From Tautonia marina (GTDB lineage Bacteria; Planctomycetota; Planctomycetia; Isosphaerales; Isosphaeraceae): 64,000 nucleotides of DNA. The notes below the pieces were generated by a model, which searched no databases, was not told where the DNA came from, and worked only from the letters and a program-made list of their open reading frames with translations. The stretch lies in assembly GCF_009177065.1 (NCBI RefSeq), contig NZ_WEZF01000002.1, positions 124,001 through 188,000 on the forward strand. Reading direction: 5' to 3'. Within the stretch, counting starts at the first letter, position 1. Each line of letters begins with the position of its first letter. A program made the position numbers and the translations under genes. This document shows, in pieces, positions 26,758 through 46,995 of the stretch.

Positions 26758-27177
26758 TCACCCGTCGTTCAGACGTTTGGGAGGAGGGAGCGGGCGGGAT
26801 TTGAGGCGATCAACCTCGGCCTGAGTCGGTCGCTGAGCGTCACGCAACGCATACGCCCGGCGCTGGGCCTGGTCCCAATCATCGGTGCGGCCGGCAGTGA
26901 CGATTGCCTCGAAGGCGGCGTGTTGAGCCCCACCGAGGGTTCCGGCCGCGCGGTGGGCCTTCAGGTCCTCTGCCACGGCTTCAAGCAGTTGCGAATCCCT
27001 TGCCGAGGTTGCAGTGGCCAGACGAAGAATCAGTTCGCGATGCTCCGGGTCGACCTGGGGAGGGGAGCATCCGCCCCCCAGCACGGCCGGCGGAAGGAAA
27101 ATCACAAGGGGGAGAATGACCGACCGGGTTCGCCTTCGCCGCAGATCAACTCTGTGGGGCCTGAGCTCAGAACTCAT
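26758..27177 (-). CDS. hypothetical lipoprotein downstream of DUF1559
   Basis: 139 aa. An Arg-rich N-terminus (DLRRRRTRS) is followed by a hydrophobic stretch ending VLGGGCSPP, a plausible lipobox. The mature part is a helical, charged domain (HRELILRLATATSARDSQLLEAVAEDL). Family not recognised. The ATG at 27177 overlaps the last codons of the DUF1559 gene by 11 bp, so the two are translationally coupled. The pairing of DUF1559 with a small lipoprotein is repeated at 45 kb, suggesting a functional unit at the cell surface. Confidence 0.75.
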   Translation of the reverse strand: MSSELRPHRVDLRRRRTRSVILPLVIFLPPAVLGGGCSPPQVDPEHRELILRLATATSARDSQLLEAVAEDLKAHRAAGTLGGAQHAAFEAIVTAGRTDDWDQAQRRAYALRDAQRPTQAEVDRLKSRPLPPPKRLNDG

Positions 27178-28171
27178 CGGCACTGACGACCTCCCCTCCT
27201 CGAATCGTGGCGATTGCCGCCCAGGCAAGCTGGTTGCAGGTTTCCTTGACGAATCGAACGCTTCCATCACCGAAGAGGATGTTGCTGCCTCCGGGATGCT
27301 CCGAGTACATCTGACAAACGTGAGCAGATCGTGAATTCGGCGGGTGAATGACGAAATCCTCCTCCGACGCCGGCCCGCTGTGAGACAACACGAGCGTGGC
27401 AGCAAAGTCGCACACGGAAAAGGCAAACCGAGGCGTTGGGCAAACCACTGCACCAGGAACAACACCCACCCAGGTCTTGTCGCTGAGAATCGGTGAATGC
27501 TCACCCATGAACATGCTGTAGGCAAGACCATCGCGAATCTCGGCGACGGTGGTGCTGGAATTGCGGAAGAAGGGACCATCGGCGATCCGCCCCTGGTCCT
27601 CGATCGTGTAGGTCCAGGCCTCGTCTCGACCGGAATTGAGGACATAATGCGACCGAGCGAACCGCGCGAGTACGGTTCCAGGCTGGTCGAGCACGTCGAA
27701 GCGTCGACTGGGTTCGCTGACCGACGGACACAGAAACGTCTCCACCGAAGTCGTTGTTGCGGTGATGTTCTCCGGGAACGCACACGGCAGGTCGAAGTTC
27801 ATCGCCTGAGCGAGCGGTTGTTGCTCAAGATAAGGGAGCAGGACCGCCCCATATCCCCATCCCGGCCCAGCATCGAGCGTGGCCGGATCGGGCACACCAT
27901 GCACCCCACCCCCACCGGAACGTGTGAGATAGCCTGGCGGAAAGCATCCAAACGCCGACTCATAATTGTGCATACCCAGACCAATTTGCTTCAAATGGTT
28001 GGTGCATTGCGCCCGACGCGCTGCCTCGCGAGCCGATTGCACCGCAGGGAGCAAGAGGGCGATGAATATGCCAATGATCGCGATGACCACCAGCAACTCG
28101 ATCAGCGTGAAGCCTGGCGCGATCGGTCGCCGCCGTTTCTCGACTGAGTCACGATGGTGTGGGATCGTCAT
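27167..28171 (-). CDS. DUF1559 domain-containing prepilin-like protein
   Basis: 334 aa. The N-terminus has the type IV prepilin processing and membrane segment PGFTLIELLVVIAIIG (residues ~19-34), with the conserved E five residues after cleavage. DUF1559 hallmarks follow: LLPAVQSAREAARRAQCTNH and, at the C-terminus, GGSNILFGDGSVRFVKE. These proteins occur in large numbers in Planctomycetota and are thought to be pseudopilin-like surface proteins; none has an established role. A lipoprotein gene follows with an 11-bp overlap. The leader upstream is about 330 bp and A/T-richer than average. Confidence 0.95.
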   Translation of the reverse strand: MTIPHHRDSVEKRRRPIAPGFTLIELLVVIAIIGIFIALLLPAVQSAREAARRAQCTNHLKQIGLGMHNYESAFGCFPPGYLTRSGGGGVHGVPDPATLDAGPGWGYGAVLLPYLEQQPLAQAMNFDLPCAFPENITATTTSVETFLCPSVSEPSRRFDVLDQPGTVLARFARSHYVLNSGRDEAWTYTIEDQGRIADGPFFRNSSTTVAEIRDGLAYSMFMGEHSPILSDKTWVGVVPGAVVCPTPRFAFSVCDFAATLVLSHSGPASEEDFVIHPPNSRSAHVCQMYSEHPGGSNILFGDGSVRFVKETCNQLAWAAIATIRGGEVVSADEF

Positions 28172-44958: not shown

Positions 44959-45186
44959 TCACTCTTCTGGCAGGGATTGGGCCGCCTTCCCCAGGGCGGC
45001 TGCTTCCGCCTCACGAGCCTCCCGCTCGGTCTGTTCTGCCTGAGCAATCGCTTGCTCGTACGCGGCAGGATTTTCGTCGGATCGTGGCGAACGATTCCCG
45101 CTCCCGGCAGCATCGCCACATCCCGAGGCGCCAAGCCCCAGCAGGATCACACCGATCAGGCCAACCTTTGAGGTTCGATCATTCAT
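44959..45186 (-). CDS. small lipoprotein A of the DUF1559 cassette
   Basis: 75 aa. MNDRTSKVGLIGVILLGLGASGCG is a lipoprotein signal with lipobox ASGC. The mature part begins GDAAGSGNRSPRSDENPAAY and continues as a short Glu/Ala-rich helix (QAIAQAEQTEREAREAEAAAL). It shares the RSP...PAxYxxA phrase with lipoprotein B. ATG 45186 has AAGGA upstream; an in-frame start at 45234 overlaps the DUF1559 stop and is unlikely. Function unknown; it probably sits in the envelope with the prepilin-like protein. Confidence 0.75.
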   Translation of the reverse strand: MNDRTSKVGLIGVILLGLGASGCGDAAGSGNRSPRSDENPAAYEQAIAQAEQTEREAREAEAAALGKAAQSLPEE

Positions 45187-45230
45187 GAAGGCAAATCCTT
45201 GAGGATGCGAATTGCGAAACGACCGAGGAA

Positions 45231-46298
45231 TCAATACTGGTCGGACGAGATCACTTCACCCGCCGCGACCGTGGACAGTGCGGTGTAGGCCAGCGGGTTG
45301 ATCGTGTCCTTAATGAATTTCACGCTTCCGTCACCAAACAAGAAGTTCGCTCCCCCGGGATGCACGCTCCGGAAGTTCGGCAAGGTTTGCCCGGAAAGCG
45401 TGTTGGCAGGAGCGAAATGATCGGTTGTCGAAGGATATCCGCAATCGTTCACGCCGTAAAAAGTCCCCAGTCGGTCGGTCGTTTTGCCCATCAACCCCCC
45501 GACGATGTACTCCGATCCCCAGCTTCGTCGACGACCAAACGCCATGAACATCACGTTGTCGAAGTGCTGAGCCTGATCGAACTGTTCCAGGGGGACGCAG
45601 ACCCGGTTCTCGGCAAAGCCCACGGCAACGAACGGGTTGGCGTCGTTTCCGCCAGCGGCCTCACCCATGAGCATCGTCTGGCTCGTCCCGTCTCGTACGT
45701 CCGACAGCCGGGTGAAGACGTCAATTCCCGACATGCCTCGGAGGTTCCGGTTCAGAAAGGGTTGCGAAACGTAGTTGTCGGACCCGGCGCTGAACACGTA
45801 ATCCGTCACCGCAACCTGGCTCAGTTCCCAGGAAACCGCCCCGAATTGAAAGGTCGATCCCACGTCGCCCTGCGTCCGGTTCGACGGGCAGAGGAAGGTG
45901 CTCACCTGCGTGGCAATGCCCGTGGTCTGATCGGGGAGCGACCATCCGAAATAGGTTCCGATCCCGGCGGCGTAGAGCCCCTGATCAAAGTTGAAGGCCG
46001 ACGACAACGCCGACTGTTCGAGGAAGGGCAAGATCGAATGAAACCCCGTGAAATTGCCGTAAACGCGGCCAAACCCGCCGTGCATGGCCGCCGGGAAGAC
46101 CTGATTGGTGCTCTCATAATTGTGCAATGCCAGACCAATCTGCTTGAGATTGTTGACGCATTGCGCCCGCCGAGCCGCCTCTCGGGCCGACTGGACCGCC
46201 GGAAGGAGCAGGGCAATCAACACCCCGATGATGGCAATCACCACCAGCAACTCGATCAGCGTAAAACCGCTTCGATGACGCGTCCAACGTGTGTTCAT
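45231..46298 (-). CDS. DUF1559 domain-containing prepilin-like protein
   Basis: 355 aa. The N-terminal SGFTLIELLVVIAIIGVL (residues ~10-27) is a type IV prepilin-like signal and membrane segment. The hallmark LLPAVQSAREAARRAQCVNN and C-terminal GGANFLFGDGSVKFIKD identify DUF1559. It heads the cassette with two lipoproteins and the Kelch gene. The leader upstream is long (~390-540 bases to the palindromes), containing hairpins, which suggests regulation both in DNA and RNA. Presumably surface exposed; function unknown. Confidence 0.95.
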   Translation of the reverse strand: MNTRWTRHRSGFTLIELLVVIAIIGVLIALLLPAVQSAREAARRAQCVNNLKQIGLALHNYESTNQVFPAAMHGGFGRVYGNFTGFHSILPFLEQSALSSAFNFDQGLYAAGIGTYFGWSLPDQTTGIATQVSTFLCPSNRTQGDVGSTFQFGAVSWELSQVAVTDYVFSAGSDNYVSQPFLNRNLRGMSGIDVFTRLSDVRDGTSQTMLMGEAAGGNDANPFVAVGFAENRVCVPLEQFDQAQHFDNVMFMAFGRRRSWGSEYIVGGLMGKTTDRLGTFYGVNDCGYPSTTDHFAPANTLSGQTLPNFRSVHPGGANFLFGDGSVKFIKDTINPLAYTALSTVAAGEVISSDQY

Positions 46299-46348: not shown

Positions 46349-46489
46349 CGTTGCGTCATGCAACGCCCACCCTCGGGACCGTGATGCAACGGCTCCTGAA
46401 GCCTCTACCGGCCTGATCGGCCCGGGAGGCACGCCGCCGGGGAGTGGTCCCGCATCCTCCCGGAACAACCGGGCCGGATGCCTCCCCGG
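46349..46489 (-). promoter_or_regulatory. structured leader upstream of the DUF1559 cassette
   Basis: Three inverted-repeat pairs occur here. (1) CGTTGC (46349-46354) and GCAACG (46360-46365). (2) CCGGGAGGCA (46422-46431) with TGCCTCCCCGG (46479-46489), one bulge. (3) GCATCC (46452-46457) with GGATGC (46476-46481), enclosing CCCGG/CCGGG (46459-46463 and 46469-46473). Pairs 2 and 3 share bases 46479-46481. The element lies 50-190 bp upstream of the DUF1559 start. It matches no known riboswitch I can recognise; GC-rich DNA produces some such pairs by chance. Confidence 0.35.
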
Positions 46490-46676
46490 CAGTCGTGCCG
46501 GCCGTCACGAAACCGGATGGCTCCGGCAGCATGACGGTGGCTCAGGGGTCGACACGCTCAAACCTCGTCTCCGCGTGTCGCGTGTGTCGATGAAGATGAC
46601 CGTTCCTCACCAACGCTCCGGGATGCTCACAATCCGGCGGGACCAGCACCGAATCATTTCACCCCGAACGATGACA

Positions 46677-46693
46677 TTGAGACTTCGTCTCAA
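46677..46693. promoter_or_regulatory. palindrome TTGAGAC-N3-GTCTCAA
   Basis: TTGAGACTTCGTCTCAA is a perfect seven-base inverted repeat with a three-base centre. The same core (TGAGAC-N3-GTCTCA) recurs at 46838. It lies ~380 bp upstream of the DUF1559 cassette, which is the only gene group for which this region is upstream. The shape resembles a Fur/Zur-type 7-1-7 operator. Confidence 0.5.
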
Positions 46694-46837
46694 CAAAACT
46701 CCTGAAGAAGGGCCTCCGGAGCGCTCCCCGAGAGGCCAACATCGGGTTCGAAACCGTCATGGAACGCGATTGCCTTGCGAACGTCTCCCAGCCACGATGT
46801 CATCGCAGCGGAAACGCCCCAGAGCTCACCGCAATAC

Positions 46838-46852
46838 TGAGACTCAGTCTCA
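46838..46852. promoter_or_regulatory. palindrome TGAGACT-C-AGTCTCA
   Basis: A perfect 7-1-7 palindrome, 161 bp from the related site at 46677. It matches the Fur-type 7-1-7 consensus (TGATAAT-n-ATTATCA) at 10 of 14 arm positions. Recurrence of an unusual core in one upstream region supports a real operator; the regulator is inferred. Confidence 0.5.
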
Positions 46853-46995
46853 ACGAGTTCGTACGATACGATCCTTCCCCCTCCCCTGTCAATGAGGGAG
46901 TTCCTGAGATCGGAAAAATGGAGGGGCGATGGCGTCCGAAGGCTCGGGGGGGAACGGTAGACAGGCCAGGGCTGATAACCGGTGGGGCGGGGATC

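Follow-up and report, generated by a model that had tools for sequence, protein, structure and literature searches.

Fur boxes of proteobacteria and Bacillus are 7-1-7 palindromes, and their registers often overlap with an offset of 6 bp. Small RNAs repressed by Fur are known as well, including RyhB, PrrF, NrrF, FsrA, IsrR and HrrF (e.g., PMC9410917; PMC4144887). In Caulobacter, DUF4198 genes are among those most strongly controlled by iron and Fur (PMC3751524), and DUF4198/PepSY clusters have been tied to iron acquisition in Caulobacter and Alteromonas (PMC11870441; PMC7190382). For planctomycetes, we found neither a Fur box nor an iron sRNA in the open-access literature.

The locus considered here lies in a 64,000-nucleotide stretch of DNA from the planctomycete Tautonia marina (the window), in which a cassette of a DUF1559 gene, two small lipoprotein genes and a DUF4198/Kelch gene follows two palindromes (Table 1). 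The explanation that accounts best for the whole locus, and which we regard as very probable from sequence comparison, is that the palindromes are Fur operators of an iron-repressed transcript predicted to carry a hairpin RNA first and the cassette thereafter.

Table 1. Features of the cassette locus (window coordinates) and of related loci (locus:coordinates).
Feature	Position	Strand	Remarks
-35 element TTGACA	46887..46892	-	predicted promoter, conserved in G003 and G002
-10 element TATCGT	46863..46868	-	18-bp spacer; predicted start site near 46856
Distal putative Fur box TTGAGACTGAGTCTCAG	46837..46853	-	overlaps predicted start site; perfect 7-1-7 core
Proximal putative Fur box TTGAGACGAAGTCTCAA	46677..46693	-	~160 bp into predicted transcript
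Conserved hairpin RNA, 77 nt	46425..46501	-	80.7 bits with covariance model R1; long stem P1, upper stem P2, unpaired GGGACCA at 46445-46451
DUF1559 protein, 355 aa	45231..46298	-	PF07596, 1.9e-48; TIGR02532 and TIGR04294
Small lipoprotein	44959..45186	-	lipobox-like LGASGC after hydrophobic stretch
Second small lipoprotein, 87 aa	44652..44915	-	lipobox-like LGSGC; counterpart in G002
Secreted protein, 899 aa	41934..44633	-	DUF4198-like beta-sandwich, then two Kelch propellers (Pfam, structure model)
Copies of the ~230-aa protein	L014:9808-10494; L068:7496-8194; L073:6267-6950; L094:6287-6922; L106:7123-7884; L108:6221-6910; L110:7178-7990		
Glutamine synthetase loci with Fur box	L013:7648-9352; L066:7040-8739; L063:8999-10922		

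An earlier note on this DNA had described the palindromes as sharing one core 161 bp apart, the second being a perfect 7-1-7 palindrome and such operators being rare elsewhere in the window. A window scan returned both at the positions given there: TTGAGACTTCGTCTCAA at 46677-46693 (proximal), which is perfect solely as a 7-3-7 site and has one mismatch when read as 7-1-7, and TGAGACTCAGTCTCA at 46838-46852 (distal), which is indeed a perfect 7-1-7 palindrome. The shared core also stands, whereas 161 proved to be a start-to-start distance between different registers, with the centres 160 bp apart. Allowing up to two mismatches to TGAGAC-N3-GTCTCA, the whole window holds no third site, all remaining matches having three mismatches, and the stated rarity thus holds. 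The exact pattern occurs four times in the 7.07-Mb genome, window pair included, against 0.27 expected. The 7-1-7 form TGAGACTNAGTCTCA with at most one mismatch has six genomic sites (0.46 expected), and the reversed-pattern control has none in the same genome. The motif consensus is ATTGAGACTsAGTCTCAAT, and the box profile is symmetric across 19 bp, its flanking T and A lying outside the search pattern. At many boxes of the orthologous cassette loci, two 7-1-7 registers occur with a 6-bp offset; the distal box of the window has one perfect register. Short palindromes can arise by chance, and these two might be accidental or belong to an unrelated regulator. However, two exact copies stand in the window where merely 0.0025 are expected, congeners conserve the sites in the same place (including the box pair in G003), and the motif is enriched upstream of iron genes. 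We give this reading virtually no credence, chance in particular being ruled out by the counts and the conservation.

The position of the distal box relative to a predicted promoter is also conserved. The promoter TTGACA-18-TATCGT matches the consensus at 10 of 12 positions and is the sole one in the gap, compared with 0.1 in shuffled sequences. When the gap was aligned with those of two congeners, the distal box was seen to lie within an invariant block in the three species, directly downstream of the promoter. It begins 9 bp after the conserved -10 element and therefore overlaps the predicted start site, the standard position for a repressor. The proximal box has an identical core in G003, there 162 bp from the distal box, and is degenerate in G002. 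DNA looping between the boxes was considered and set aside, given that the two species with a measurable spacing have 160 and 162 bp and that G002 shows a single clear box. Both this promoter, overlapped by the second palindrome, and a conserved hairpin RNA in the 380-bp gap that separates it from DUF1559 had been overlooked in the earlier note.

The genes found at other copies of the motif point to iron. For this comparison, the locus surroundings of motif sites were retrieved and genes were predicted with a codon model; a simple predictor supplied the gene calls and distances for the relatives, and the gene classes behind the count of 71 sites were assigned by short signature strings. The motif is present in 35 of 40 related genomes (own genome counted), with about ten times more matches than the reversed control, these relatives not being independent samples. 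None of 71 distinct sites lies inside a gene, and for 65 of them a gene begins no more than 600 bp away; their neighbours include DUF1559 (35), FeoA (7) and FeoB (3) genes. The boxes of L111 and L113 stand upstream of feoA-like sequences that the gene predictor overlooked and that come in addition to the FeoA count. In the own genome, boxes precede feoA-feoA-feoB by 104 bp (L014) and a DUF1559 gene by 33 bp (L011), and others stand before a two-gene unit with DUF1559 last (L012) and before a glutamine synthetase gene (L013). Pfam domains at further boxes comprise FTR1 (L081), Bfd (L117), PepSY_TM (L064, L086) and ApbE-DUF2271 (L103). At L120, from another family of the same class, a Kelch gene and a DUF4198-like gene run divergently from the two sides of a box and encode as separate proteins the two halves that are fused in the window protein. 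The scan upstream of genes that the earlier note had called for hence revealed enrichment, contradicting random occurrence. Judged from these gene contents, the motif marks a predicted iron regulon in T. marina as well as in its relatives, and planctomycetes would gain a defined Fur box with it.

Three Fur-family proteins are encoded in the genome, of which one is closest to a Fur of solved structure, and the remaining two are PerR-like and Zur/Nur-like. PerR- and Zur-type recognition sites are palindromes similar to those of Fur, and with such paralogues in the same genome the boxes might instead be bound by the Zur-like or the PerR-like protein and convey a zinc or peroxide signal. We consider this improbable, since the genes at the boxes are those for ferrous and ferric iron uptake, Bfd, PepSY and ApbE, with no zinc transporter or peroxide-defence gene recognised among them; zinc or peroxide control is thus disfavoured by the regulon content, and for the same reason the metal would be iron rather than zinc. 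We infer that the paralogue binding the boxes is the Fur-like one, and the two palindromes of the window are almost certainly, by all comparative indications, binding sites of the iron repressor Fur. The suggestion of the earlier note that they resemble Fur-type operators and place the cassette under metal control is accordingly borne out by comparative genomics, namely by a rare, strictly intergenic motif with iron-uptake genes downstream and by an encoded Fur-like protein.

Several other genes recur at these boxes. A conserved protein of ~230 aa (motif RLLDDPxVxxWNxRDDYMPYWAxxWP) is repeatedly encoded divergently from feoA or FTR1-like genes, with which it shares a Fur box (Table 1). One copy searched against NCBIfam gave no match, and the protein is possibly an unrecognised member of the iron regulon. 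At L103:7104-10468 (G023), a Fur box is followed by a 566-aa EF-hand protein and then an ApbE-DUF2271 fusion; the EF-hand protein has a weak lanmodulin match (67 bits vs. 135 needed). Glutamine synthetase genes of the own genome and of G003 likewise have Fur boxes, 270-494 bp upstream, and a ferritin-like gene adjoins at L013 and L066. This arrangement might mean that nitrogen and iron control are linked or, alternatively, that an RNA gene was missed.

The orthologous cassettes provide an unbiased test of the box, since this set was picked by a search with the Kelch protein and not by the motif. Among 45 genomes of the bacterial family, 20 have the cassette, and in all 20 orthologous DUF1559-lipoprotein-DUF4198/Kelch operons a box precedes DUF1559, with at most three mismatches of 16 in 18 of them and four in the other two. 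By comparison, about 3.4% of random 430-nt stretches of the cassette loci have a box with at most three mismatches, true boxes included. The single additional Kelch paralogue, which is not part of such an operon, lacks a box. In the window, 380-540 bp separate the boxes from DUF1559, a larger distance than most relatives have. A search for related loci with the Kelch protein returned only a distant Methylotuvimicrobium Kelch protein. With a box before every orthologous cassette tested, control of the cassette by a metal, which would be iron, through Fur-type operators is supported comparatively.

As for the proteins of the cassette, the DUF1559 protein combines a prepilin-type N terminus with a C-terminal H-X9-DG motif; its structure model is unusable (pLDDT 37). 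The start of the first small lipoprotein was shifted to an internal ATG of the listed ORF 44959-45234, and the protein has a counterpart in the orthologous operons. The list of downstream genes in the earlier note is correct, with the reservation that the DUF4198 match in the N-terminal domain of the 899-aa protein is weak (E = 9e-4, below the Pfam cut-off). The structure model of this protein has a mean pLDDT of 84, and its Kelch folds were matched in the PDB, the resemblance being to Kelch propellers in general with nothing specific to a function. We infer that the cassette may be an envelope device for iron acquisition. If so, part of the large DUF1559 family of unknown function would be tied to iron and its function would become testable. 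The second DUF1559 gene of the window (27167-28171) has no Fur box, nor do most of the 63 DUF1559 hits in the own genome, so that only a subset would belong to the iron regulon. Fur-boxed DUF1559 units with small lipoproteins and PepSY_TM proteins at L064:6186-8894 and L086:4480-6701 appear to represent a second type of DUF1559 iron cassette.

Between the boxes and the DUF1559 gene, the alignment of the congeners reveals a GC-rich island (~46425-46501, minus strand) that is more conserved than its surroundings, and a 151-nt stretch around it folds with a z-score of -5.3 relative to shuffles. Comparison with Rfam returned nothing for the window leader, nor for the hairpin at 13 homologous loci, which rejects a known Rfam RNA as its identity. 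Related copies were found in G003, G002, G001, G011, G017, G054 and G016. An exact-pattern search of the 45 genomes yielded nine copies, one per genome and without control hits, each preceded on its own strand by a Fur box at a distance of ~130-400 nt. A covariance model seeded with 12 copies gave 22 significant matches in 21 genomes and a refined model added one, the E-values of these models being rough, which brings the total to 23 copies in 22 of the 45 genomes. The eleven non-seed copies all have a Fur box, and weak matches have none. Double changes occur in 12 of 22 pairs in a MAFFT alignment and in 20 of 22 in the model-fitted alignment, with all covariation measures above every shuffle, and the unpaired GGGACCA is nearly invariant across copies. 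A small protein in this interval was rejected: from box to hairpin end, 13 of 21 loci (including L201, L210, L212, L220, L221 and L234) have no ORF of at least 25 aa, and length variation among the hairpin copies is out of frame, which counts against this reading. No recognisable RNA was found in about half of the family genomes, including four cassette genomes of genus g14 (G050-G053); repeating the search with laxer filters in the RNA-lacking genomes gave one match (E = 0.14) without a box. Five weak matches in another planctomycete family (E = 8.5e-4 to 0.04), with no nearby Fur box, were dismissed as noise. A 6S RNA (RF00013, 46.6 bits) lies at L210:1844-2004, ~270 nt from the stand-alone hairpin of G022 and on the opposite strand. 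The hairpin thus appears to be a previously undescribed, structurally conserved RNA next to Fur boxes across the bacterial family.

What this RNA does is a separate question. A Fur-repressed sRNA would have a Fur-box promoter of its own, and 22 of the 23 copies lie just downstream of a box, with promoter-like hexamers (at least 9 of 12 positions) next to it at 19 of 21 loci, compared with 6% of shuffles. The remaining copy (L214) instead closes a Fur-boxed DUF1559-lipoprotein-DUF4198 operon at its 3' end. This placement fits another reading, in which the boxes are Fur operators and the hairpin acts purely in cis, serving the 5' leader of Fur-controlled DUF1559 genes as attenuator, terminator or stabiliser. 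Consistent with such a cis element, 14 of the 23 copies precede a DUF1559 gene (57-203 nt away in the 13 measured), and the T-rich tails or T-tracts of the stand-alone copies L210, L212 and L205 resemble intrinsic terminators. At these stand-alone loci, the T-tracts would also suit a brief noncoding RNA that stops at such a terminator. However, eight copies lack any gene on their own strand within 400 nt, and a plain terminator needs neither the conserved unpaired GGGACCA nor the P2 stem. Further, the congener G001 keeps box and RNA, flanked like those of the window by M28 peptidase and PP2C-like genes, at a place where the cassette is absent, whereas its cassette, on another contig, has a box of its own and no hairpin. 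The RNA is therefore separable from the operon, which speaks for an independent noncoding RNA under Fur control, and we give the purely cis-acting role somewhat less than an even chance. Some copies seem to act as, or to have merged with, the leader of a DUF1559 operon; extra Fur boxes stand between hairpin and DUF1559 at L193 and L216. The window copy, in the position of an operon leader with DUF1559 following, has no T-tract, and no Fur box intervenes before DUF1559, so that transcription would have to continue past the hairpin here unless DUF1559 has another promoter.

For a regulatory, sRNA-like role of the hairpin RNA, the chances seem about evenly balanced. The more specific proposal, that these are Fur-repressed trans-acting RNAs of the iron-starvation response, with one long hairpin and the nearly invariant GGGACCA as a seed or protein-binding bulge, falls just short of that. 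If true, it would be the first known iron-sparing sRNA family in Planctomycetes, coupled to DUF1559 envelope genes. In any case, a new structured RNA of one family behind Fur boxes is a candidate iron-response RNA, of a kind that we did not find described for the phylum in the open-access literature.

Taken together, we propose that, under plentiful iron, Fe-loaded Fur would occupy the distal box, over the start site of the sigma-70-type promoter, that the proximal box, 160 bp downstream, would probably be bound as well, and that transcription toward 41934 would be off while Fur is bound. When iron is scarce, Fur would be released and a transcript would begin near 46856, with the hairpin RNA (46501-46425) first and, if transcription goes on, DUF1559, the two lipoproteins and the secreted DUF4198/Kelch protein. 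The hairpin RNA would constitute a Fur-controlled noncoding RNA family of its own, because other members of the bacterial family have it where no such operon is present. The comparisons support the identity of the operators, the geometry of the promoter, the content of the regulon, the structure of the RNA and its coupling to Fur boxes, and the direction of regulation is presumably iron repression.

Compared with the described systems, the putative boxes share with the Fur boxes of proteobacteria and Bacillus the 7-1-7 architecture, the 6-bp overlap of registers at many loci, the position over the start site and an iron-uptake regulon. By contrast, their half-site, TTGAGACT, is richer in G+C than the AT-rich TGATAAT type, and the predicted regulon is dominated by planctomycete DUF1559 genes. 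Like the Fur-controlled DUF4198/PepSY/DUF2271 clusters of Caulobacter and Alteromonas (PMC3751524; PMC11870441; PMC7190382), the boxes here are accompanied by the same partner domains; however, the DUF4198-like domain of the window is fused to two Kelch propellers and accompanied by DUF1559 and small lipoproteins, and no TonB receptor was seen beside the cassette. With the Fur-repressed sRNAs such as RyhB, the hairpin RNA has in common a predicted promoter whose start site is covered by a Fur box; at some stand-alone copies it may also share the short noncoding unit and, to judge from their T-tracts, the terminator-like 3' hairpin. It differs from them in having no detectable sequence or Rfam relation, in a conserved core that is one long hairpin with the unpaired GGGACCA, and in that over half of its copies stand in front of DUF1559.
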